Positions 18,258-30,359 of a stretch of DNA of 42,650 nt are shown here, in pieces. How positions within the stretch are numbered: the first letter of the stretch is position 1; each line of letters begins with the position of its first letter. Made by a program: the position numbers and the translations under genes. The notes under the pieces are model-generated. The model saw only the letters and a program-made list of their open reading frames with translations. It did no database searches and had not been told where the DNA came from. Source of the DNA: Paracoccaceae bacterium (GTDB lineage Bacteria; Pseudomonadota; Alphaproteobacteria; Rhodobacterales; Rhodobacteraceae). The stretch is taken from the NCBI GenBank assembly GCA_020447005.1, contig JAGRDO010000015.1, positions 1 to 42,650 of the forward strand, read 5' to 3'.

Positions 18258-18388
18258 GGCGTTGCCTTTCGCTGTGTCTACCTGTTGCTAGGACGCGGTC
18301 GGGCCAAGGTCAATGCCGGGTTGAAACCGGGGCGGTGCGCCTTGCGCCAGCGCTTGCCCTGCCCGCCCGCACCGCCTATCACACCGGC

Positions 18389-19351
18389 ATGATCAAGGTC
18401 GCCGCCCTCTACCAGTTCACCGCCTTCGCCGACCCGGCGTCGCTGCGCGCGCCGCTTCTGGCGACATGCGAGGCCTCGGGCGTGCGTGGCACCTTGCTGC
18501 TTGCCCGGGAAGGGATCAACGGCACCATCGCGGGCAGCCCTTCGGGGATTGCCGCGGTGCTGGCCCATATCCGGGCCCTGCCCGGATGTGCCGGGCTTGA
18601 CTGGAAGGAAAGCACGGCCGCCGAGATGCCGTTCGGGCGCATGAAGGTGCGGCTCAAGCGCGAAATCGTGACGATGGGCGAGCCGGAGATCGACCCGCGC
18701 GCGGGGACGGGCCATTATGTGGCACCCGGGGACTGGAATGCGCTGATCCGCGCCCCGGATGTCGTGGTGATCGACACGCGCAACGATTACGAGGTGTCGA
18801 TCGGGACGTTCGAGGGCGCGATCGATCCCGGCACGAAAAGCTTTCGGGACTTTCCGCAGTGGTGGCGCGACAATGCCGGGCGCTTTGGCAACAAGCGGGT
18901 GGCGATGTTCTGCACCGGCGGCATCCGCTGCGAGAAATCGACGAATTTCCTGCTGAGGGAAGGTGTAAGCGAGGTTTACCACCTGAAGGGCGGCATCCTC
19001 AAATACCTTGAGGACGTGCCCGCATCCGAGAGCCTTTGGCAGGGCGAATGCTTTGTCTTCGATCAGCGCGTCAGCGTCGGTCACGGGCTGAAAGAGGGGC
19101 AGCACGGGCTGTGCCATGCCTGCCGCCGGCCCATCGGCGCCGCCGACCGCGCGCATCCCGACTTTGAGGAAGGCGTGGCGTGCCCGGCCTGCAAGGATGA
19201 CTATTCCGAAACCCAGCGCGAGCGGTTTCGCGAGCGCCAGCGCCAGATGGAACTGGCGGGCGACCGGGGGGACCTGCACCTTGGTCAGCGGCTGGACAGG
19301 GCCTCGGACAGGCGCGAGAAGCGTTGCGGTCCGGCAAGCGACCAGTCGTAA
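18389..19351 (+). CDS. trhO: tRNA uridine(34) hydroxylase, rhodanese family
   Basis: TrhO (YceA family) uses oxygen to hydroxylate U34 of certain tRNAs. The 320 residues show the N-terminal acylphosphatase-like domain ([16 protein letters not shown], residues 34-49), a rhodanese domain ([20 protein letters not shown]) with the active loop [11 protein letters not shown] holding Cys175 and Cys181, and a C-terminal tail with two CxxC pairs (242/245 and 265/268) that look like a zinc site. An upstream in-frame start at 18335 adds 18 non-conserved residues, so ATG 18389 is preferred. Its last 67 bp overlap the end of the opposite-strand glycosyltransferase gene. Confidence 0.93.
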
Positions 19352-20499
19352 AGCAGGGCCGCCGCCCGCGCGCTTTGCCCGCGATGGCGGCGCAGCTCTT
19401 CCGAACCGGCGAACCTCGCGATCATGTCGCGCAGCTGATCGCGATCATGCGGGGCCACGATATCGATGGCGCCGGTCTCGGCGCCGATCCGGCCTGCCCC
19501 GGCGGGCGAGGCGATGACGGCAAGCCCATGTGCCGCGGCCTCGTAAGTGGCGATGGGATCGCCTTCCTCCAGCGAGGGCAGGACCAAGACATCGGCCGAT
19601 GCGAGTTCGGCCGAGACATTGCGGGAAAACCCCGCGCAGGTCACGTTTTCCTGCGCCAGGACATCGGCGAAGAGCCGGGCGACGGCGGGTTCGACGCGGC
19701 CGACAATGCGCAGATGCGCGGTGGCCGGAACGTCCCGCCACGCGGCGAGAAGGTGATGGATGCCCTTGCGGATGCAGGCCGTCCCCAGAAAGAGGAACGT
19801 CACCGGCTGCCCCGGCGCGCGCGGCGCGCGCGGGCCAAGGGAATTCGGTATCCATGTGCCGTAGCTTGCCGGGACCGCCCGGCCGGCAAGCGCGGTTCCG
19901 GCGAAGGCGGCGTCGGTGGCCGGGCTGGGCGAGAAGATCGCCGAGGCGAGCGCGTGGCGTTCGTTCTGTTCGGCGATCCGGGCCGGGGTGATCCCGTGAT
20001 CGGGCGGCAGGCCCAGACGGTCATAGGCGGCATCCAGAACCGGCTTGGCCACCTCCATCCTTGTGTTCAGCGACTCGACCGCGATCAGGATGCCGCGCCG
20101 GGCAAGTTCCCGGTAGACGGCAAGCGGTGTCGAGGGCCAGAGATAGGCCAGATCGCCCGGGGCGATGGCGGACAGGTAGCTTTCCACAAGCCGGGGCTGG
20201 CCCAGCCATGAGGTCGCCACGTAGGGCAGGGTCCGCATTGCCGGGCCAAGCGCATGGCGGCAGGCAAAGGGCAGCGCTTCGGCCCTGTCGACCCGCGCGG
20301 TAAAAAGCTCCAGCGGGAAATGACCGGCGCTGGCCGTCAGGATCGACCGGCAGGTTGCGGCGACGCCGGCGCCGACGCAGGGCACGGGGAAAAGGGCGCG
20401 GATCGTCCCGGTGAAAGCCGTGGCCACCGAGGCCCCGCCCCCGCCGGGCCGCGTGCCGATGGCGGCGGGTATGCCGGTTTCAAGCCGCTGGATCGTCAT
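19285..20499 (-). CDS. GT4-family glycosyltransferase (GT-B fold)
   Basis: A 404-residue glycosyltransferase. The C-terminal half has the GT4 pattern: [28 protein letters not shown], and [25 protein letters not shown], which contains the E-x7-E nucleotide-sugar motif; the usual G-F/Y-G after the first Glu is here GDP, an uncommon variant. The N-terminal acceptor domain is poorly recognisable. The 67-codon in-frame extension to 20700 lies inside the upstream polymerase gene and includes a translated hexanucleotide repeat, so ATG 20499 is taken as the start. It overlaps the upstream Wzy-like gene by 20 bp and is surely cotranscribed with it; the donor sugar is unknown. Confidence 0.85.
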
Positions 20500-22057
20500 C
20501 TGCGGGAAACCTTGTGTAACGGTGGGAGGCCGCCCCGGCCCGATCCGGATCGGGGGATGCCGCCGGTTCGTGGACGCGCCGGAGTTCCGGATCCCGCCCT
20601 TTCCGGCTGCGGGAAAGCGGCGGGCTGCCTTCGCCCCCCCCGGCCCGCGCCCAGGCCAGCCCGGAGCGGGTTGGCGCGGCATCGGCATCGGCATCGGCAT
20701 CGGGCAGGTCGGCCTTCAGCCCGGCGACCGGTTCATCCGCGATCCACAGCCCGGCGGCGAGCATGAAGAACACGAGCGAGTAGATCGCCGACCAGATATG
20801 GACGGTCGCAAGGGTGAAGCTGAGGCCGGTAAAGGTGATCATCCATGCCAGTCTGAGGTTCGACAGCCTTTCGTCGCCCACGATCTTCTTGCGGCCGATG
20901 CGCAGGATCGCGTCGAGATATCCCGCCGCGAGGAAAAGGAAGCCCGGAACGCCGTAGCGCATCGTGGTGGCCAGCCAGAAATTGTCGACGCTGCCGCTGC
21001 GAACAAAGCTGGGGCGGACCCATTTCGAGTAGCCGAGGCCGAAGATCGGGTGGGCGCGAACGTTCAGCATGCCCCATTCGAAGATGATCCCGCGCCAGTA
21101 GGCGGTGTGGGCCGAAAACGTCGCGTAGCTCATCAGCACCTTGATCGGCGTGCGGTTCGACAGCAGGTCGATGGTCACATAGGCCGTAGCGAAAAGCAAA
21201 AGCAGGTACAGCCAGCGCTTTTCGTACTTTCGGAAGATCACCGACCAGGCAATCAGCCCGATCTGGAGAAGCGAGGCGAGCAAGGCGCCGCTGGACAGCG
21301 ACAGGAAGACGCCGAGGAATATGGCCGCCATGCTGACAAAGCGCGCCGCGCCGAACATCAGGCCGCGCAACCCGACATAGGTCATCGACAGGGCCAGCGA
21401 ACAGAACAGCCCGTAATGGATCGGATGGCTGAAAAAGACCTGCGCCCGTTCCAGCCCCATCCGTTTGGGGATGTTGACCTGCGCCACCGAATTCAGGACC
21501 GGCAGATCGTCGATGAACTTGGGAATATAGGCCACGCCGCTGCGCGCCTCGGCAAGGGCAAGCGGCATCGACAGGAGCACAAGGATCAAAAGCGCGCGGA
21601 TCAGCGCGATCATGTCGCCCCGCGTCCGGATGAAGTTCCGTGCGAGCATGTAGCCGCCAAGAAACTCGGTCGTCGTGGCGCCCACGTTTTCAAGCGCCAC
21701 ATGCGGCGAGGTGACCGTCAGCGCGATCGCGCACCAGATCACATGGAGGCCGAAAAGGATATCGACGGGGTAGACCCGGCCGCATTGCCCGGAAAGGACC
21801 CGGAGCGTTGTCGGAACGATCGTGATCAGCAGAACGAGGCGAAGCCCGGTCATGGTGACCGAACCGAGGTTGAAGCCGAAGGGAATGATCACGGCGATCA
21901 GATAGAGCCAGACAAGCGGATGCAGGCTTGCCCTGTCGCTGGCCGCGCGCCCGGACGGGCGGGCCTGGCTGGGATAGCCGGCTTCTATCGTGCTTACAGA
22001 CAAGGGTCGACGGGTCCTGCTGCCTTGTTCGAGGCGCAACCATAACGCAAAGCGCAT
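20480..22057 (-). CDS. Wzy/O-antigen-ligase-like membrane polymerase
   Basis: About 525 residues with roughly eleven hydrophobic segments, consistent with the O-antigen ligase/Wzy superfamily that joins polysaccharide units at the periplasmic face. The typical late region is present: HTAYWRGIIFEWGM, HPIFGLGYSKWVRPSF, then SVDNFWLATTMRYGVPG in the large periplasmic loop. The C-terminal 70 residues are low-complexity, beginning with a (Asp-Ala)4 run encoded by a GGCATC repeat, and run into the next gene. The start is unsure: ATG 22057 sits right on a G run, TTG 22003 has AGGA 11 bp upstream. It overlaps the GT4 gene by 20 bp. Product is likely a capsule or exopolysaccharide. Confidence 0.8.
   Translation of the reverse strand: MRFALWLRLEQGSRTRRPLSVSTIEAGYPSQARPSGRAASDRASLHPLVWLYLIAVIIPFGFNLGSVTMTGLRLVLLITIVPTTLRVLSGQCGRVYPVDILFGLHVIWCAIALTVTSPHVALENVGATTTEFLGGYMLARNFIRTRGDMIALIRALLILVLLSMPLALAEARSGVAYIPKFIDDLPVLNSVAQVNIPKRMGLERAQVFFSHPIHYGLFCSLALSMTYVGLRGLMFGAARFVSMAAIFLGVFLSLSSGALLASLLQIGLIAWSVIFRKYEKRWLYLLLLFATAYVTIDLLSNRTPIKVLMSYATFSAHTAYWRGIIFEWGMLNVRAHPIFGLGYSKWVRPSFVRSGSVDNFWLATTMRYGVPGFLFLAAGYLDAILRIGRKKIVGDERLSNLRLAWMITFTGLSFTLATVHIWSAIYSLVFFMLAAGLWIADEPVAGLKADLPDADADADAAPTRSGLAWARAGGGEGSPPLSRSRKGRDPELRRVHEPAASPDPDRAGAASHRYTRFPADDDPAA
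20678..20701. repeat. (GGCATC)4 hexanucleotide repeat inside the polymerase gene
   Basis: Four perfect tandem copies of a six-base unit. In the polymerase frame it encodes alternating Asp and Ala after the last membrane segment. A change in copy number would keep the frame, adding or removing Asp-Ala pairs. Confidence 0.95.
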
Positions 22058-22442: not shown

Positions 22443-24683
22443 ATGTTATCACTCTCCGCCATATCAACAACGCAGCCGCGGACGCGGCCGGGCGTTTCGG
22501 TGCCTCCCCCCAGCGGCGCCGTCGCCGTCGCCGGGTTTTCGCGCGACCGCGTGCTATTTGACAGCGGGGCGGCATTCGGCCGGGCAGTGGCGGATATTCC
22601 GCTTGTCGGTACGGCGACCGCGGGCGAGGTGGTTCAGGCCCGGGCCCTGTCGCTGGACGACGGCGGCGCGACCACGACGGCATGGGTCGATGCCGGAACC
22701 GCCGATGGCGGCGGAAACTGGACCGGCACGATCACGGCGCCGCGTTCGGCATCGTGGTTTCGGGTCGAGGTGCGGCTGAAGGCGAACCCCGGCATTACCA
22801 ATCAGGCGGCGACACGCTTTGGTGTCGGCCATGTCATCGCCATATGGGGCCAGTCCGAGCCGGACCGCATCATCTCGGGCTTTTACGACAACACCACCCC
22901 GCCGGCGGTTTCGGACCCGGAGGCGGTGCAGATCATTCAGGGCGCCGCCGCCACGCCCGCGGTCACGCATGTTTCGAACGCGCAGCCCGTTACGGCGGCG
23001 GTGGCGGCGATGGCCGGAACGCTGATCACCGCGCGGCCCGGCGAGAAATTCGCGCTGATCTTTCACACCGTGCCGGGGACCGACCCGCGCGAGCTGGTCA
23101 ATGACAGCAATGCCGGGCGGATGTGGGCCAATGACAAGGCCCTGCATGACTTCGCCACGGCCGACGGGCAGAAGGTGGGCATCGCGGCGATGTCGTGGTT
23201 CGCGGCGCCGGGCAATCTCGGGTCCAATTACGCCGCGGCGCTGTTTCCGCTTTTCTCGGGCAAGACGACGGCCGGGGCCCCGGTCAGCTTTCCGACCGAC
23301 ATCGTGCATCCCGGCGGCAGCTATCACGCCGATCACTGGTTCGGCGAGCTTTACGACTATGCCCATACCAAATGGGCGCCCTACGGGCCGCATCGGGTGG
23401 ACATCGCGGCCGACCATCAGGACGCGACCCATTTCACCGGCGGCGCCGCCAACCCGAAGATGCAGAACCGCGAGGCCGTGCGCCAAAGCTGGCGCGCGAT
23501 GCTGGCCCTGCCGGATGCGACGATGTTCCTGCCGCTCGGCTCCGAGCCCATGGCCTATGTCAACGGATACGACGACGGCGCGGGAAGCTGGACCGATCAG
23601 GAACACCCGGCCGGAAACACCCCCGACGGCGCCCAGCGCTTTGCCCGCCTGACCGCGCATGCGATCCTGAAATCGGCCGGGCTGGCGGGGTGGACGGTGC
23701 CTGTCTTCGACACGTCCCTGTGGGAGCCGTCCGGCGCCTGGGTCGAGGTCTGGTCCTCGGCCGGGCCGGTGACGACCACAAGGCTGCAACGCGCCGAGGC
23801 GCCGTTGGGCACCACATATTCCCACTGGACGACGGTGGTCGGGTTCCAGATCAACGGTGTGCCGGCGCGAAACACCCAGATCGTCGCCGGGCGCGTCCGC
23901 ATCCTGCCGAATTCGGGCGTCTTCACGAATGCCGATGCGATCACCTTCGGCGAAGGCGGGGCGACGGGCAGCCTGAAATTCCCGCAGGATTTTCCGGCCG
24001 GGCTTTGGAAGAACCTTCCGGTTGTCGATGTCGGGCTTGCCGATGTCGGCGGAATCTCGGTCCGGCCGCTGCCATCGCCGGCGGCGCTGACCAATACCCT
24101 GCCCGCGGGCGCGCCCAGCTTTCACACCTCGGCCACCGGCCCCTATTTCGTCAACCCCGCGAACGTCCCCGCGGGCACGAGCGCCATCACCTTCGCGGCG
24201 CGGATCCGGTTTTCGGCATTGCCCGCGACGACGAGCATGCTGTTTTCGCAATCGTCGACAGGCTTCGACGTCGAGCTGAACAACAGCGGCGGATTGCGCA
24301 TCACGATCGAGGATGGCACCGGCGCGAAGATGTTGCAGAACTATGTCTTCAATGCGGGGCTGGTCCCGAACGTCTGGTACGATCTGGTCTGTTCGGCCAA
24401 TCAGGCGACGGCGGTTCACCGGATCATGATCAACGGCGTCCTTGCCGATACGATGGCCTTTACCGCGACCGGCAACGGCCTGTTCCAAAGCACGCGCGCG
24501 CTGAGTTTTCTGGCGCGCAATTCGGGCACGCCGCAATTCGAGGGCGAAGTGGAGTATCTGCGGGTCTGGCATTCGGCAACCGCGACCGGTGCCGCACCTG
24601 CCGGGGCGCCGTTCAAGCAGATCACCGGCCCGGCGAGCGTGGCGAATGCCGACAGCTGGAAGCTTGGCGCGAACGCGACCTGA
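22443..24683 (+). CDS. Predicted GTA/phage-type spike fibre with SGNH-like and LamG-like regions (GhsB candidate)
   Basis: A 746-residue protein. Residues 130-390 resemble an SGNH/sialate-O-acetylesterase-like hydrolase: Ser138 in IWGQSEPDR suits block I, and Asp385/His388 in TDQEHPAGNTPDG suit the block V DxxHP pattern. Residues about 580-725 look like a concanavalin/LamG sandwich (ITFAARIRFSALP, WYDLVCSANQ, VHRIMINGVLADTMAF). No clear signal peptide is seen, fitting a particle component better than a Sec-exported enzyme. The neighbouring small gene belongs to the GhsA spike-base family of the Rhodobacter GTA, whose partner GhsB is the larger spike; I infer this is that partner. An open frame upstream to 21990 is ignored for lack of a ribosome site. 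A strong terminator follows. Confidence 0.6.
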   Translation: MLSLSAISTTQPRTRPGVSVPPPSGAVAVAGFSRDRVLFDSGAAFGRAVADIPLVGTATAGEVVQARALSLDDGGATTTAWVDAGTADGGGNWTGTITAPRSASWFRVEVRLKANPGITNQAATRFGVGHVIAIWGQSEPDRIISGFYDNTTPPAVSDPEAVQIIQGAAATPAVTHVSNAQPVTAAVAAMAGTLITARPGEKFALIFHTVPGTDPRELVNDSNAGRMWANDKALHDFATADGQKVGIAAMSWFAAPGNLGSNYAAALFPLFSGKTTAGAPVSFPTDIVHPGGSYHADHWFGELYDYAHTKWAPYGPHRVDIAADHQDATHFTGGAANPKMQNREAVRQSWRAMLALPDATMFLPLGSEPMAYVNGYDDGAGSWTDQEHPAGNTPDGAQRFARLTAHAILKSAGLAGWTVPVFDTSLWEPSGAWVEVWSSAGPVTTTRLQRAEAPLGTTYSHWTTVVGFQINGVPARNTQIVAGRVRILPNSGVFTNADAITFGEGGATGSLKFPQDFPAGLWKNLPVVDVGLADVGGISVRPLPSPAALTNTLPAGAPSFHTSATGPYFVNPANVPAGTSAITFAARIRFSALPATTSMLFSQSSTGFDVELNNSGGLRITIEDGTGAKMLQNYVFNAGLVPNVWYDLVCSANQATAVHRIMINGVLADTMAFTATGNGLFQSTRALSFLARNSGTPQFEGEVEYLRVWHSATATGAAPAGAPFKQITGPASVANADSWKLGANAT

Positions 24684-24712
24684 GCCCGGCCGGCTGACCG
24701 GCCACAAGACCG

Positions 24713-24747
24713 AAAAGGGCGCCGCAGAAGACCTGCGGCGCCCTTTT
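24713..24747 (+). terminator. Intrinsic terminator after the spike-fibre candidate
   Basis: A perfect 11-bp stem (GGGCGCCGCAG at 24717-24727, CTGCGGCGCCC at 24733-24743) with a 5-base loop is followed by TTTT; four A precede it, so it can also work for the convergent spike-base gene. Confidence 0.9.
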
Positions 24748-24797
24748 GCCTTTGCCGATTTGCCGTCCGCCGCGCCCGGTTCGCGCGGCCCCTGCCC

Positions 24798-25058
24798 TTA
24801 CCAGAGCGCGACGATCCCCGTCGCGGTCGTCCCGGTCGCGTTGATGCCGAGGGCGCGCACCGGCAGAAGCGATCCTGCCTGGACGTTCTGGAACACGACC
24901 GTTCCACCGCCGGCAAGCCGCGCCGAGACGTTGCCGGTCTGACCGACGAAAAGGGCGCGCGGCAGGATCGAAAGATCCGTCGCGTCATTTGGTGTCACCG
25001 CGAGCGCGTCGCGGGCGGGCGCCGTGAGGCTGGTTGGATAGTCGGAAAATTTGTCCAT
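24798..25058 (-). CDS. ghsA: Spike base protein, RCAP_Rcc01079 (GhsA) family
   Basis: An 86-residue protein with the distinctive wording of the Rcc01079 family: a charged start MDKFSDYPTSLTAPARDALA, VTPNDATDLSILPRALFVG, then VSARLAGGGTVVFQNV and QAGSLLPVRALGIN ending in ATGIVALW. In Rhodobacter capsulatus this family member forms the base of head spikes on the gene transfer agent; the spikes bind the recipient's capsular polysaccharide. Similar small proteins occur in some phages, so a prophage origin is possible, but no other capsid, tail or packaging gene lies in the window. It faces the spike-fibre candidate across a shared terminator and is divergent from the beta-helix gene. Confidence 0.78.
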   Translation of the reverse strand: MDKFSDYPTSLTAPARDALAVTPNDATDLSILPRALFVGQTGNVSARLAGGGTVVFQNVQAGSLLPVRALGINATGTTATGIVALW

Positions 25059-25456
25059 GTCTTATCATCCCGTTCGTGCCTGAACCGGGCCGGGTCAAGG
25101 CGGGCCGACAGACCCGACCGCGATGCCCGGCCCCTGACAGGCGTTTGGCCAATCCCGAGAATGGAGTGCCGGCAGGGCACCGGATCGGGACGGGCAATTC
25201 TTGCCAAGAACGCTTAACATGACCGCAAGCCGGCGCGCGCTGCCCGGGACCGCCGGCGCGCAAACTGTTTCGTCGGCCGAAACCGAACAAACGTGAAAAA
25301 CAGCGGATTGACGCCGATCTGGTTAACGATTCATTGAAAAAACCCGGTGGATTCATCAACTGAGACACAGACAGACTACATTTGCGCCCCATCTTTGCCA
25401 TGTTGCACCGCATTCTTCGAAACAGCGATACCACTCATCGAACGAAGGAAATTCCA
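25059..25456. promoter_or_regulatory. Divergent regulatory region between spike base and beta-helix genes
   Basis: About 400 bp, with a markedly A/T-richer part from 25260 to 25456 compared with the surrounding genes. It should carry the promoters of both flanking genes. TTGACG at 25308-25313 is a possible -35 element for the rightward gene, without a convincing -10. A CtrA-like sequence at 25323-25337 is listed separately. No open frame here looks coding. Confidence 0.55.
25323..25337 (+). promoter_or_regulatory. Candidate CtrA-type site TTAA-N7-TTGA
   Basis: TTAACGATTCATTGA differs by one base from the CtrA full-site consensus TTAA-N7-TTAA. CtrA is needed for GTA production in R. capsulatus and controls motility and cell-cycle genes widely in alphaproteobacteria. 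A single near match in AT-rich DNA is weak evidence. Confidence 0.35.
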
Positions 25457-27181
25457 ATGCAACTCGTCCGCTCTCTGCTGATCGGAAGCCTCGGCGCGGC
25501 GCTTATCGGCGTGCCGGCTGAAGCGGCGGATTTTTATGTCAAACCGCAGACCGCAGGCCCTGTCGGGGGTACGCCGCTTTCATCGATTTCGTTGCAGGCG
25601 ACGACCGATCCGCTGCTTTATCCGGAAGGCACCGACCAAAATCCGGAAGGCACCGACCAAACCACGGCGGACGAGGGCACGAGCGGCGATGTGCAGTTCC
25701 GCTCTGCCGCGACCACCGAGGTTTCGACCGCAGGCAAATGGGTCAAGGCCCGGAAGAAAAAGGGCCGGAAGAACACGACGGGTTCGACGGATACGTCGGG
25801 CGCGACCACCGCCGGCGAAACCGCAACGGGCGGGACGTCCACAGAGGGAACGTCCACCGGCGGGACATCTACCGGCGGCACTTCGACTGGCGGCACTTCG
25901 ACTGGCGGCACTTCAACTGGCGGAACCTCGACGGGCGGCACTTCTACCGGCGGAACCTCGACGGGCGGGACGACCACGGGCGGCGGGACGACTGCCGGCG
26001 GAAGCACCTGGGGCAGCTTCGATGCGCTGATGGCTTCCGGTCAGGTCAACGGCGGCGACCGCATTTTCCTGATGGACGGCTATCATGGCCCGATCGTGGT
26101 CAAGGACATGAAATTCACCTCTCCGGTGCTGATCGCGCCGGTTTCGGGCCAGACCGCCCAGGCGGATTCGATCCTGGTGATGAATTCGAGCAACGTGACG
26201 TTCAACGGGCTCAAGGTCTGGGCGACGTCGGCGAATGCCGGAAGCGGCGCGCTGATCCGCAGCTATACCAATACCAGGGATATCAACTTTACCGGGCTTG
26301 ATGTTCGCGCCGTCGCGAATTCAGGCAATTACATGAGCTGGTCGCAGACCGAATGGCTGGCCAACCAGCGCGTCGGATTTCAGGTGGACGGCACCAATAT
26401 CTCGGTCACGAAAAACCGCCTGACGGGTCTTTACCACGGCATTCTCAGCCTTGGCGGCAACGCCCTGATCGAGGAAAACATCGTCGATGGCTTTGCCGGG
26501 GACGGCATGCGCGCCCTTGGCGACAACTCCATCATCCGCCGCAACAAGGTGCAGAACTGCTTCCAGATCAACAAGAACCATGCCGATGCCTTCCAGTCGT
26601 TTTCGCGCGGGCCGACCGGCAAGCCGGGGACGGGAACCGTCCACAACCTGACCATCGAGGACAACAAGTTCTTCGAATGGGTGTCGAGCGCCAGCAATCC
26701 CTTGCGCTGCAAGCTTCAGGGCGTGGGGATGTTCGACGGGATGTTCGACGGCATCATCGTGCGGAACAACGTGATCATCAGCCGCGCCTATCACGGCATC
26801 ACCATCGCCGGTGCGCTGAATTCGCAGATCGTGAACAACACGGTGATCAGCGCGCTTGGCAAGGCCGACCGTTACCCGTGGATCAAGGTCGCGCCGCACA
26901 AGAACGGGACCTTGTCGAACAACGTCACCATCGCCAACAACATGGCGACGAATATCAAGTCGATCACCGATCCGACCCGCAATATTCTGGTCACCGACAA
27001 CGTCATCGTGAAAAGCCCGGGTGCCGAGTTCGCGTCGATTGCGCAATTCGACTATTCGCTGAAGTCGACCTCGAACGGCGCGAATACCGGGAATGCGAAA
27101 TACGCACCCGCGGATGACATCGCAGGCGTGCTGCGCCCGAGGGGCAAGGCCCCCGATATCGGAGCCTATGAAAGCTTCTGA
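25457..27181 (+). CDS. Secreted right-handed beta-helix protein with GGTST-repeat linker
   Basis: A 574-residue exported protein. Residues 1-23 form a Sec signal peptide ending in PAEA before ADFYVK. Residues 50-120 are acidic then Lys-rich (KWVKARKKKGRKN), followed by a Gly/Thr/Ser linker of ten GGTST units (about 125-174). From about 185 to the end there are beta-helix coils of the NosD/pectate-lyase type, with ladders such as NVTFNGLKVW, NALIEENIVDGF, NSIIRRNKVQNC, NLTIEDNKFFEW, GIIVRNNVIIS and SQIVNNTVIS, ending in the DIGAYESF motif common in such proteins. It may cleave, epimerise or bind a polysaccharide; catalytic residues cannot be assigned. AAGGAA precedes ATG 25457. A terminator follows. 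Confidence 0.85.
   Translation: MQLVRSLLIGSLGAALIGVPAEAADFYVKPQTAGPVGGTPLSSISLQATTDPLLYPEGTDQNPEGTDQTTADEGTSGDVQFRSAATTEVSTAGKWVKARKKKGRKNTTGSTDTSGATTAGETATGGTSTEGTSTGGTSTGGTSTGGTSTGGTSTGGTSTGGTSTGGTSTGGTTTGGGTTAGGSTWGSFDALMASGQVNGGDRIFLMDGYHGPIVVKDMKFTSPVLIAPVSGQTAQADSILVMNSSNVTFNGLKVWATSANAGSGALIRSYTNTRDINFTGLDVRAVANSGNYMSWSQTEWLANQRVGFQVDGTNISVTKNRLTGLYHGILSLGGNALIEENIVDGFAGDGMRALGDNSIIRRNKVQNCFQINKNHADAFQSFSRGPTGKPGTGTVHNLTIEDNKFFEWVSSASNPLRCKLQGVGMFDGMFDGIIVRNNVIISRAYHGITIAGALNSQIVNNTVISALGKADRYPWIKVAPHKNGTLSNNVTIANNMATNIKSITDPTRNILVTDNVIVKSPGAEFASIAQFDYSLKSTSNGANTGNAKYAPADDIAGVLRPRGKAPDIGAYESF
25621..25662. repeat. Tandem 21-bp duplication in the beta-helix gene
   Basis: Two nearly identical 21-bp units, differing at the last base, encode PEGTDQN and PEGTDQT in the N-terminal acidic region of the beta-helix protein. 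Confidence 0.9.
25829..25978. repeat. 15-bp minisatellite, ten units encoding GGTST
   Basis: Ten in-frame 15-bp units encode GGTST with few deviations (unit 2 starts EG, unit 10 ends TTT). Codons differ between units in the third position, while units 4 to 6 are almost identical, which suggests recent expansion within an older array. The linker separates the N-terminus from the beta-helix. Confidence 0.95.
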
Positions 27182-27208: not shown

Positions 27209-27240
27209 CGCCCCGCCACACCGGCGGGGCGTTTTCGTTT
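27209..27240 (+). terminator. Intrinsic terminator after the beta-helix gene
   Basis: A perfect 9-bp stem (CGCCCCGCC at 27209-27217 and GGCGGGGCG at 27223-27231) with a five-base loop is followed by TTTTCGTTT. It ends exactly at the stop codon of the convergent GT2 gene. Confidence 0.9.
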
Positions 27241-28112
27241 CAGATCTGTCCGCCAAATGCCTGGCGCAGCATCCACCAGGCGCGGCGGCACCGCATCGAG
27301 ATAAGGGCCGCCGCCCCGCTGGCCCGTTCCGCGCCGCCCGACAGCCGCGGGCTGGCGACGAGTTTCGGCAGATGGGCGAGTGCGCTCAGCGCCACGACCG
27401 GTGCCCGCGCCGCCCAGAGCACACGCCCGGTCAGCCCCGGGTGGCGGGTCTGGTGCAATGCGAACATCTCGCGCGTGATCCGGCGCCACTTGCGGTCGAG
27501 TGCCGGCATGTCCGACCGGGTCGGATGGCTGACGCGAAGGTTTTCGTCCAGCGCTATGCGAAAGCCCTTGGCGCGGGCACGAAGGCACCATTCGGCATCT
27601 TCCGACAGCCCGTCGATGAACGGCCCCACCGCATCGAAGACAGTCCGCGATGTCAAAAGGTTGGCGGTGACCGAAAAGTGCTTTTTCTCGATATAATCCC
27701 GGTAGTTGAAGGCAAAGACCGTCTCGAAGGCCTGCGCGCCGCTGCGCGGCGGCGGCGTCTCGTCGAAGACATCGATCGCGCCGCCGACGATATCGGCGGC
27801 GCCGCATCCCGCCTGCGCGGCCGAAAGCCAGTCCGGTGCCGGCACGCAATCGGCGTCGAGAAAGAACACCCACGGCGCGGTTGTTTCGGCCACCCCGCGA
27901 TTGCGGGCATTCGCGGCGCCCTTCATGGGTTCATGCAGCAGCCGCACCGCCGGAAAGTCCGCAGACACCCAGCCTGTCGGTTCGGTCGAACCGTTGTCGA
28001 CGACCACCACCTCGGCCGTGCCGATGCCGGGCGCGAACAGCGCCCCGAGGCAGCGCCGCAAACGGGCCGTGTCATTGAAATGCGGAATGATCACCGCGTG
28101 GCTGGGAATCAT
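27240..28112 (-). CDS. GT2-family glycosyltransferase (GT-A fold)
   Basis: A 290-residue family 2 glycosyltransferase. It shows the opening HAVIIPHFNDTARLRRCL, the nucleotide-binding VVVVDNGSTEP (Asp39), KGAANARNRG (64-73), and the metal-binding DAD at 86-88 in FFLDADCVPAPDW. Later GLSEDAEWCLRARAKGF carries the ED/W acceptor-site pattern. There are no transmembrane helices, so it probably works on the cytoplasmic face on a lipid-linked sugar. Its place in the polysaccharide island suggests capsule or exopolysaccharide assembly. Donor and linkage are unknown. Confidence 0.88.
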   Translation of the reverse strand: MIPSHAVIIPHFNDTARLRRCLGALFAPGIGTAEVVVVDNGSTEPTGWVSADFPAVRLLHEPMKGAANARNRGVAETTAPWVFFLDADCVPAPDWLSAAQAGCGAADIVGGAIDVFDETPPPRSGAQAFETVFAFNYRDYIEKKHFSVTANLLTSRTVFDAVGPFIDGLSEDAEWCLRARAKGFRIALDENLRVSHPTRSDMPALDRKWRRITREMFALHQTRHPGLTGRVLWAARAPVVALSALAHLPKLVASPRLSGGAERASGAAALISMRCRRAWWMLRQAFGGQI

Positions 28113-28464: not shown

Positions 28465-29127
28465 ATGTTGGGTATGAAATGGGTCGCCGGCGCCATTGCC
28501 GGGATCACCATGGCACTCGGGGCCTCTGCGTCCAGTGCATATGTGATCGATTTTACCAGCGCGTCGACCGGGCACACCGGCACATTGTTCAACGGCAATG
28601 TGACCTGGACCATGACGGCGAGCGGTATTTTGAACAATTCGCAGGCGTTTGACGGAAACTCGGCTCCGTCCGGCACCGGCCTGTCGTTCCAGACGGACGG
28701 CTACGGTGTTGGCGCGCATGACGACGAGATCACGAACTTCAACGGCAAGCGGCAGGAATGGATCAAGGTCTCGTTCAGCTCGGCCGTGATGGTGGACGCG
28801 ATCTATTTCCTCGATCTTTTCGTCGCCAAGGACCAGAGCTCGCTTGAAATCGGTCAGGCCTCGATCAACGGCGGCTTCCCGATCATCTCGCTCTTCGCGA
28901 CCGATGTCGCGGGTTCCGGCGCTCCGGGCTTTGTCGGCGCGACCTTCGGGCCGATTTCCGTGACCGAGATTTTCTTCACGGTCCTTTCGTCGAACGACAA
29001 TGTCGGCTTTGCCGATGGCGCGCTGGCTGGCATCGGTATCGCACCGGTTCCGCTTCCGGCCGCCGGGCTGATGCTGATCGCCGGTCTTGGCGGCATCGCC
29101 GCCCTGCGTCGGCGCCGCAAGGCCTGA
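28465..29127 (+). CDS. VPLPA-CTERM sorting-signal surface protein
   Basis: A 220-residue exported protein. An N-terminal signal peptide (WVAGAIAGITMALGASASSA) is followed by a beta-rich domain with no named family that I recognise, and the C-terminus is a textbook VPLPA-CTERM tripartite signal: VPLPAAGLM, a hydrophobic helix, and RRRRKA. In Rhodobacteraceae such proteins are processed by exosortase XrtD and are usually tied to exopolysaccharide production. No exosortase gene is in the window. GAAGGGG precedes ATG 28465, and a strong terminator follows the gene. Its location beside glycosyltransferases supports a role in the extracellular matrix. Confidence 0.9.
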   Translation: MLGMKWVAGAIAGITMALGASASSAYVIDFTSASTGHTGTLFNGNVTWTMTASGILNNSQAFDGNSAPSGTGLSFQTDGYGVGAHDDEITNFNGKRQEWIKVSFSSAVMVDAIYFLDLFVAKDQSSLEIGQASINGGFPIISLFATDVAGSGAPGFVGATFGPISVTEIFFTVLSSNDNVGFADGALAGIGIAPVPLPAAGLMLIAGLGGIAALRRRRKA

Positions 29128-29302: not shown

Positions 29303-29692
29303 ATGCAACAGTTCGAATACAAGGTGGTGCCTGCACCCGAGCGGGCCGACAAGGTCAAGGGCGCGAAAACCCCCGAGGAACGCTTTGCCCAGACCGTCGC
29401 CGAAATCCTGAATTCGCTTGGCAAGGATGGCTGGGAATACCAGCGCACCGACACATTGCCGTCGAGCGAGCGCAGCGGGCTGACAAGGCGGGCGACGGTC
29501 TATCGAAGCTTGCTGATTTTCCGTCGCGTCAAAGCAGCCGATGCCGGAGAAGCCGAACGCAAGATCGAGACCAGGGCAACAGCGGGCAAGACGCCGACGA
29601 TCCGGGCCTCGAAGGCCGAACCGGAGGCCGCGCCACCGGTACCGGCCCCGTCGGTCGGCGTGAAGACCGGCACGAAAGCCGACGCGGAATAG
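29303..29692 (+). CDS. DUF4177-like small protein, paralog 1
   Basis: A 129-residue protein. The first 75 residues carry the DUF4177-like pattern QFEYKVVPAP, a central helix (FAQTVAEILNSLGKDGWEYQRTDTLPS) and a closing strand YRSLLIFRR. The rest is Ala/Pro/Lys-rich and probably disordered. Function is unknown. The second plus-strand gene downstream (29982) shares the same core, so the two are paralogs. I start at ATG 29303; the frame is open further left, but overlaps the preceding terminator. Confidence 0.75.
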   Translation: MQQFEYKVVPAPERADKVKGAKTPEERFAQTVAEILNSLGKDGWEYQRTDTLPSSERSGLTRRATVYRSLLIFRRVKAADAGEAERKIETRATAGKTPTIRASKAEPEAAPPVPAPSVGVKTGTKADAE

Positions 29693-29981: not shown

Positions 29982-30359
29982 ATGTTTGAATATAAATTTA
30001 TGCCTGCCCCTCGGCAGGTAAGCCGAGAGGATCGGCTTGTGAATGACTGGAATGAGTTGCCGGCATCCATGGACAGCGAGGTAAACCTGCTGGCCGGGGG
30101 CGGATGGGAATACCTTCGGACCGACAGGCTGCCAGTCCGCAAACGCAGGTTTCTGTTCCTGCATTCGACAACCTATCACGATGTCATGGTGTTTCGCCGC
30201 GCAATGACCGGACCAAGGCTGGTTGAAGTGGCGCCGGAACCTGCGGCCGAAGCGAATATCCGCCCGCGCCGCGTGGTCGCCAAGCGGCGTCCGGGGATGC
30301 GCCCGAACCTGTCCTCGGTTCAGACCGGCGCGGCGCAGCCGGTACGCATGGCGAACTGA
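29982..30359 (+). CDS. DUF4177-like small protein, paralog 2
   Basis: A 125-residue protein whose opening FEYKFMPAPRQ and motif GGWEYLRTDRLPV match paralog 1 (FEYK..PAP, DGWEYQRTDTLP). The C-terminal 50 residues are basic and unlike the other copy. Function is unknown; the shared Trp-Glu-Tyr core suggests a small beta-alpha fold. The preceding 290 bp is strikingly AT-rich, so it probably has its own promoter separate from paralog 1. The next gene downstream encodes a J-domain protein. Confidence 0.72.
   Translation: MFEYKFMPAPRQVSREDRLVNDWNELPASMDSEVNLLAGGGWEYLRTDRLPVRKRRFLFLHSTTYHDVMVFRRAMTGPRLVEVAPEPAAEANIRPRRVVAKRRPGMRPNLSSVQTGAAQPVRMAN

Follow-up and report, generated by a model that had tools for sequence, protein, structure and literature searches.

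A predicted gene transfer agent head-spike pair encoded beside polysaccharide genes in a Paracoccaceae bacterium

Why should a head-spike base of the gene transfer agent (GTA) type be encoded among polysaccharide genes, and what is the large protein encoded next to it? This question is raised by a 42,650-nt stretch of DNA from a Paracoccaceae bacterium (GenBank assembly GCA_020447005.1, contig JAGRDO010000015.1), hereafter the window, which constitutes most of one 43-kb contig in a 3.5-Mb assembly of 196 contigs that is 91% complete. A sequence-only reading had proposed that an 86-residue protein and a convergently encoded 746-residue candidate fiber (P0001) form a GTA-type head spike embedded in a polysaccharide island. 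Judging from the comparisons described here, we consider it probable that this pair encodes the head spike of the bacterium's own GTA, with the fiber binding the polysaccharide specified by the adjacent locus. L-, G- and C-numbers denote loci, genomes and contigs, respectively, and the features of the pair are as follows.

22443-24683, plus strand: candidate GTA head-spike fiber (GhsB-equivalent), P0001, 746 residues; relatives adjoin spike bases, docking-type N-terminus
22443-22472, plus strand: docking-type peptide at the fiber N-terminus (residues 1-10), with hydrophobic positions 2, 4, 7 and 9 in the clade (N-terminus comparison)
22818-23717, plus strand: conserved central fiber region, residues 126-425, with Ser138, Asp385 and His388; SGNH-like by motif only (alignment)
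24165-24578, plus strand: LamG-like (concanavalin A-like) domain, fiber residues 575-712, the most variable large region (PF13385, 9.9e-13)
24713-24747, no strand assigned: 15-bp perfect inverted repeat between the convergent genes, a bidirectional-terminator-like hairpin (fold z-score)
24798-25058, minus strand: head-spike base protein, Rcc01079/GhsA family, 86 residues (NF048002, phrog_12296, PDB 6tb9)

Both open reading frames were found where the sequence-only reading had placed them, and its family assignment for the smaller protein was borne out. By profile and sequence comparison, the 86-residue protein is clearly a spike base of the Rcc01079/GhsA family: it matches the NCBIfam model NF048002 (spike_base, RCAP_Rcc01079 family) over profile positions 1-85 of 85 (7.8e-33, 112.6 bits, cut-off 28), phrog_12296 ('tail fiber protein') in the PHROG search, and the solved base Rcc01079 of the Rhodobacter capsulatus GTA (RcGTA) over residues 1-82 (PDB 6tb9, chain 6tb9_E3, E 7.3e-13). 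A profile and sequence search of the assembly returned one spike base and one P0001 match. The two genes converge across a gap of 114 bp, and the 61-nt stretch containing the inverted repeat has a fold z-score of -6.9. As had been remarked from the sequence, both this layout and the fiber size (746 residues versus 325 in RcGTA) differ from a simple ghsAB operon. The co-directional ghsAB order, absent from the window, does occur in relatives: at L065 (G107) and L068 (G273, with a split gene), the base is immediately followed on the same strand by a P0001-type gene, and at L064 (G231) and L072 (G103), the P0001-type body forms part of longer fusions directly downstream of the base.

Relatives of P0001 are present in 19 of 394 family genomes, including that of the window, and a scan of GTDB contigs yielded 24 P0001-type loci, some of them from genomes also sampled under G-numbers. 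Among the relatives with at least 54% identity, 14 of 16 have a convergent base within 0.5 kb and the other two contigs end just after the fiber, a recurrence that makes chance adjacency unlikely. The remaining eight GTDB loci comprise one convergent and adjacent pair (L202), one co-directional pair (L204), one locus with the base 3.4 kb away (L199) and five that are base-less in the stretch. In view of the bases that adjoin relatives in other genera, the recurrent convergent pairing and the docking-type N-terminus, the 746-residue protein is probably a head fiber paired with the base, as the sequence-only reading had suggested. Separately, the fiber gene of Frigidibacter sp. RF13 (L060/L200) is broken, with an in-frame stop, a split match and no docking-type start found, in the presence of the base and the island neighbors.

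Further support was sought at the N-terminus of the fiber. In RcGTA, an alternating Ile/Leu peptide at residues 2-10 of the head fiber fills five base pockets. A corresponding docking motif was observed in 34 of 67 co-directional pairs (a gene within 700 bp 3' of a base on the same strand, in stretches of up to 20 kb) versus 107 of the 1281 other genes in these loci (Fisher p 8e-18), the motif having been derived from part of the sampled neighbors and hence not being independent of that part. Several co-directional neighbors that fail the strict motif look alike by eye. Convergent pairs carry it in 5 of 29 cases, among them the window pair and one L067 gene that accounts for two of the five; 27 of 389 genes from controls and six base-less loci also carry it, although some of these loci hold P0001 relatives and the set is not a clean control. 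Genes were called with our own codon-usage caller, which for P0001 chose a start lying 19 codons beyond the ATG at 22443. The motif was tested at every start between -40 and +20 codons, both in cases and in controls, the starts of P0001 relatives being chosen with the motif in view. The motif count includes a spurious L067 base row (score 1) that was removed later, and L103, L074, L077, L137, L138 and L146 give two rows each among the 67 and 29 pairs.

Within the P0001 clade, positions 2, 4, 7 and 9 are hydrophobic in 100, 88, 94 and 88% of 16 N-termini. Among the P0001-relative genomes, N-termini were read in all but the weakest five (G094, G311, G101, G196 and G297). P0001 itself has large hydrophobic residues only at Leu2, Leu4 and Ile7 and none at position 9, so strict alternation is not kept. 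The 12 alignment rows other than the viral one, P0001 and the prophage-borne L064 included, have a Leu/Ile-rich start in varying register. On sequence grounds, either the peptide would bulge or the base pockets would differ from those of RcGTA. Three phage neighbors of bases were examined, and the motif is present in RcapNL and P8625 and absent in RHph_Y25. RcapNL and P8625 resemble the window in that the base is followed by a gene starting with an alternating Leu/Ile-Gly peptide, and the annotation of the P8625 base neighbor includes a concanavalin A-like lectin domain; they differ in that their genes are co-directional and lie in phage genomes. Two P0001 relatives that belong to phage tail modules, one viral (L033) and one in a prophage (L073), lack the docking peptide, and neither stretch yielded a base, the L033 stretch breaking off within the fiber.

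The docking end appears to be constant and the rest of the fiber exchangeable. Among 38 adjacent fiber bodies, 34 co-directional with the motif and four convergent of P0001 type, we found 18 clusters without mutual BLAST similarity (1e-6, at least 80 residues), and sequence comparison indicates that base and docking peptide are kept and the fiber body is exchanged. For P0001, the sequence-only reading had predicted a LamG-like and an SGNH-like domain. The former was confirmed (PF13385, residues 575-712); the latter was matched by conserved residues only, and beyond LamG no match to P0001 was obtained in Pfam, NCBIfam, PHROGs or PDB. Gln137-Ser138 is present in 23 of 23 alignment rows of the P0001 family and Asp385-x-x-His388 in each of the 22 rows extending that far. 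Ser138, Asp385 and His388 resemble an SGNH triad, and the family matches the catalytic-type Ser and DxxH residues of SGNH/SASA esterases. No curated SGNH-family profile matched P0001 or any of the 23 family members, which leaves esterase membership unsupported, and PDB searches with P0001, its family profile and two other fibers returned nothing usable. The LamG-like part is the more variable: in 16 rows (P0001 and 15 relatives), mean pairwise identity is 0.70 for residues 126-425 and 0.475 for residues 601-720, which are mostly LamG-like, a pattern expected if the LamG part meets a variable ligand. Another fiber with the docking motif, at L099 (G050), bears a SASA carbohydrate-esterase domain (PF03629, 2e-12), so that an esterase head fiber is plausible in this family. 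As to P0001, a profile comparison of its family against the L099 fiber was negative, and SASA/SGNH membership is not claimed.

These observations bear on whether the 746-residue protein might instead be a host exopolysaccharide enzyme, for example a polysaccharide O-acetyl esterase, that lies beside the base by chance. The conserved Ser138, Asp385 and His388 and the glycosyltransferase neighbors would suit such an enzyme, as would L207 (5908-8007), where a polysaccharide cluster includes a remote relative of P0001 that has a signal-peptide-like start by eye and no docking peptide, with no base found in the stretch. However, P0001 and its close relatives show no signal peptide on visual inspection and have docking-type N-termini, relatives occupy the ghsB position and phage tail modules, and no enzyme family matched above cut-off, so we regard this explanation as very unlikely. 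The family search, which gave LamG only, did not place the protein in an unrelated enzyme family, an outcome that the sequence-only reading had named as a refutation. The L207 protein is possibly a case of the same body used as a secreted protein.

If the pair is a head spike, to which particle would it belong? The genome has one GTA_TIM, one HK97 capsid and one portal match, all on contig C94, which is separate from the spike locus and carries terminase, portal, protease, capsid and tail genes and a 1304-residue megatron (seven proteins scanned) in what is presumably the RcGTA order. From this gene content, C94 is predicted to hold an RcGTA-type cluster. The GTA cluster for which the sequence-only reading had called is thus present elsewhere in the genome, and it holds the sole capsid and portal matches of the assembly. 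No GTA or phage structural homologue was found in the window, and none of the three outcomes that the sequence-only reading had named as refutations (a genome lacking a GTA cluster, a prophage with its own capsid genes around the pair, an unrelated enzyme family for the fiber) was observed. Twenty-one structural queries found such homologues neither in the window nor in 93 of 94 fetched base loci, L064 being the exception. More broadly, GTA_TIM was matched in 97 of 102 base-bearing genomes versus 162 of 193 others (p 0.005). On C94, a 236-residue gene directly after the GTA megatron (L177, 4171-4881) could be a tailspike or tail fiber gene.

A different owner, namely a prophage past or present whose head spike was left behind or borrowed and serves another virion, would fit the occurrence of family bases in 78 of 50,697 phage records, 68 of which are Flavobacterium phages. 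PMC8601537 reports matches to rcc01079 in phage RcapNL and to rcc01080 in RcapMu and RcWaterboi. P0001 had no match in the phage collection, and a 70%-identical fiber relative lies downstream of phage tail genes at L033. L064 (G231:C1, 8489-12482) combines a base and a 1236-residue fiber that has a docking peptide, a stretch weakly resembling a beta-helix, with a score under the Pfam cut-off, and a P0001-type body. Its neighbors are akin to tail genes of prophage L073, so that L064 represents a phage version of the same spike, and the position of the L064 base within a prophage tail module indicates that bases also serve phages. Nevertheless, a prophage origin seems unlikely for the window pair, given that its own genome has no further HK97 capsid or portal match, that the structural queries went unmatched there and in nearly all base loci, and that the pair is conserved between genera together with the host island.

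The neighbors of the pair, as judged from their families, form a small exopolysaccharide island, as follows.

18335-19351, plus strand: TrhO (family scan)
19285-20499, minus strand: GT4 glycosyltransferase (Pfam)
20480-22003, minus strand: Wzy-like polymerase, Wzy_C / O-antigen ligase domain (Pfam)
25457-27181, plus strand: choice-of-anchor Q protein, beta-helix by sequence look, signal-peptide-like N-terminus by eye (NCBIfam; conserved beside the base)
27240-28112, minus strand: GT2 glycosyltransferase (NCBIfam and Pfam)
28465-29127, plus strand: VPLPA-CTERM protein, exosortase XrtD substrate type (TIGR03370)

The GT4, Wzy-like, GT2 and VPLPA-CTERM genes were identified as previously described, by Pfam, NCBIfam and TIGR03370. 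For the protein at 25457-27181, the choice-of-anchor Q domain comes from NCBIfam, whereas the earlier label 'beta-helix' agrees with the look of the sequence and with no Pfam family. The recognized polysaccharide genes are confined to approximately 19-29 kb of the window, beside TrhO and metabolic genes. A minus-strand frame at 18278-19279 was rejected as a glycosyltransferase, being on the wrong strand of the real TrhO gene.

The embedding of the pair in a polysaccharide island was therefore confirmed, and such linkage proved to be common. We compared 95 base loci (94 of 114 base matches, the window included and the omitted 20 mostly the weakest, plus one in G307) with 20 control loci picked by round coordinates on long contigs, using profiles of our own for GT4, GT2, Wzy, Wzx, Wzz, kinase, initiating transferase and UGDH. 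At least one polysaccharide-gene match was found in 68 of 95 base loci versus 2 of 20 controls, and at least two in 60 of 95 versus 0 of 20. The comparison favors base loci, as the profiles were seeded with sequences of the window and of loci fetched around P0001 relatives and the bases that accompany them. A more independent measure is Pfam Poly_export, which lies within 15 kb of at least 17 of 85 bases in 79 less fragmented genomes, among the 150 matches listed, against 1.25 expected for an assumed mean genome size of 3.85 Mb. By these counts, linkage of spike bases to polysaccharide genes is widespread in the sampled family.

In Defluviimonas denitrificans, the island runs on into an export core of kinase, chain-length-type protein, sugar transferase, Poly_export and XrtD (some of these names by eye). 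The window genome has its export core (XrtD) on contig C131, well inside that contig, and the fiber and base stay with Wzy, GT4 and GT2; if the joined island is ancestral, the spike would have remained linked to the polymerase and glycosyltransferases as the cluster split. In D. denitrificans and G275, one strand carries a polymerase, an acyltransferase-like gene (by eye), a hexapeptide acetyltransferase-like gene and a GDSL-type gene, followed by the fiber, an arrangement that would fit an acetylated ligand; the families of these acetylation-type genes were scanned in L057, and the window is without the acyltransferase-like, hexapeptide acetyltransferase-like and GDSL-type genes.

Correlated divergence was examined across 15 island loci, with partial tests of n 9-13 that are uncorrected for the number of tests. 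Fiber identity correlated with that of nine other island families at 0.21-0.72, a kinase of the export core included (Spearman 0.60). With the kinase controlled, the fiber correlated with the base (r 0.44, p 0.018), the beta-helix protein (0.40, p 0.029) and GT4 (0.48, p 0.007; n 10), and gave r 0.32 for Wzy (p 0.072, n 9), 0.18 for GT2 (p 0.23), 0.23 for VPLPA (p 0.19) and 0.02 for the SGNH-type periplasmic protein (p 0.45). The corresponding values for the base were 0.47 with the beta-helix protein (p 0.021), 0.21 with GT4 (p 0.19), 0.26 with Wzy (p 0.15), -0.24 with GT2 (p 0.81), 0.22 with VPLPA (p 0.21) and -0.13 with the SGNH-type protein (p 0.80). In addition, loci with related fibers share more polysaccharide genes with the P0001 cluster included (0.42 versus 0.08 per pair, p 0.002). 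Without this cluster the sharing is not significant (0.077 versus 0.048, p 0.33), and the figures for all flank genes are 0.28 versus 0.10 (p 0.06). The idea that fiber and polymerase change together, raised by the sequence-only reading, is thus not sustained by the fiber-Wzy correlation or by gene sharing outside the P0001 cluster, the fiber-GT4 value being uncorrected.

The ligand step of our explanation has to be weighed against a shared hot spot, in which spike and polysaccharide genes both settle in variable islands with no functional matching, a view compatible with the head-spike part. The covariation of fiber and kinase identity, the ordinary level of polysaccharide-gene sharing among similar fibers outside the P0001 cluster and the 27 of 95 base loci without any tested polysaccharide gene all speak for it. 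Against it stand the window genome, where fiber and base remain with Wzy, GT4 and GT2 although the XrtD export core is on C131, and R. capsulatus, for which PMC10218006 describes capsule and spike genes as adjacent, co-regulated and functionally matched, the head spike binding the capsule. On balance, a hot spot without matching appears somewhat unlikely. The receptor-spike linkage put forward by the sequence-only reading had already been published for R. capsulatus (PMC10218006).

We therefore return to the pair as the head spike of the bacterium's own GTA. By analogy with the geometry of RcGTA, five copies of the 86-residue base would sit on a capsid vertex, and one 746-residue fiber would be held by its N-terminal Leu/Ile peptide. 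We infer that the spike is incorporated into GTA particles, where the C-terminal LamG domain and the conserved, possibly esterase-like core may bind, and perhaps trim, extracellular polysaccharide. The most likely ligand would be the polysaccharide whose repeat-unit genes GT4, Wzy and GT2 flank the pair, and particles would thereby stick to cells of the same coat type. The similar neighborhood in related bacteria suggests that particles recognize the coat encoded next door. Several observations nevertheless weigh against this explanation. Convergent base and fiber genes cannot share a single transcript, unlike ghsAB. The register of the P0001 clade (2, 4, 7, 9) departs from that of RcGTA (2, 4, 6, 8, 10), so that docking may differ; P0001 matches the docking motif only via Ala6, and 33 of the 67 co-directional neighbors of bases, like 24 of the 29 convergent ones, do not match it. 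At 91% completeness the assembly may miss a prophage, and five of 102 base-bearing genomes have no GTA_TIM match. The prophage setting of L064 and the 27 base loci lacking polysaccharide genes belong here as well, and the genome's own Poly_export genes are on other contigs than the window.

Compared with the known system, the window has the same base family as the RcGTA head spike GhsA/GhsB (Rcc01079/Rcc01080; 6tb9), which is accompanied by capsule genes rcc01081-01086. An RcGTA-type cluster in the genome, a Leu/Ile-rich fiber N-terminus and adjacent polysaccharide synthesis genes are further likenesses. The differences are the convergent genes with a terminator-like hairpin, the much longer fiber, the variant docking register and an island of VPLPA-CTERM/exosortase type in place of the R. 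capsulatus capsule cluster. P0001 is likened to Rcc01080 by position and N-terminus, and no PDB chain in the library searched matched it. The R. capsulatus GTA tailspike TspA, as described in PMC13420450, acts on the producer's own matrix polysaccharide, like the proposed fiber, although it is attached to the baseplate, unlike a head spike. By sequence, an ordinary base has an unusual partner, and the linkage, previously known from a single species, proves to be common across the sampled family. Among the titles and abstracts listed in the literature search, none stated the wider linkage or the docking peptide as a general rule, though an earlier statement is possible; within the literature searched, the convergent layout, the body common with phage tail modules, the variant docking register and the 18 fiber-body clusters are new.

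These comparisons lead us to propose, tentatively and with less than even confidence, that across Rhodobacteraceae the GTA head spike is a host-owned recognition cassette, with a constant base and docking peptide, interchangeable bodies (some common with phage tails) and a fiber gene kept beside the polysaccharide locus of its ligand. If this is true, coat synthesis and coat recognition would be inherited together and would decide the partners of DNA exchange. The reason why GTAs are retained by bacteria has yet to be settled. If the receptor-binding part is regularly encoded beside the receptor genes, DNA exchange would be aimed at cells of the same coat, and the attractive idea of kin exchange, which we offer as a proposal, would become testable. 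The docking peptide may also serve as a simple sequence rule to seek head fibers of otherwise unrecognizable sequence, and the P0001 family would offer one body that serves as a GTA-type head fiber, recurs in phage tail modules and perhaps also has a secreted form.

Other features were noted around the pair. On the minus strand at 25379-25400, approximately 60 bp before the beta-helix-like gene, lies a 22-bp block strongly conserved in relatives. With up to 4 mismatches allowed, it matched 18 times, never more than once per locus, across 2.26 Mb of loci that are base-type or related (some genomes being represented twice), and not at all in 0.4 Mb of controls; it probably serves the beta-helix-like gene as a promoter or leader element. 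The CtrA consensus is TTAA-N7-TTAAC, and one CtrA-like site with 1 mismatch occurs between the base and the beta-helix-like gene (25322-25337, minus strand), within chance expectation, as at least one site arose in 27 of 100 shuffles. Finally, two consecutive small open reading frames on the plus strand, 29303-29692 (no PHROG or NCBIfam match) and 29982-30359, have similar starts, MQQFEYKVVPAPER and MFEYKFMPAPRQ, and are possibly tandem paralogues.

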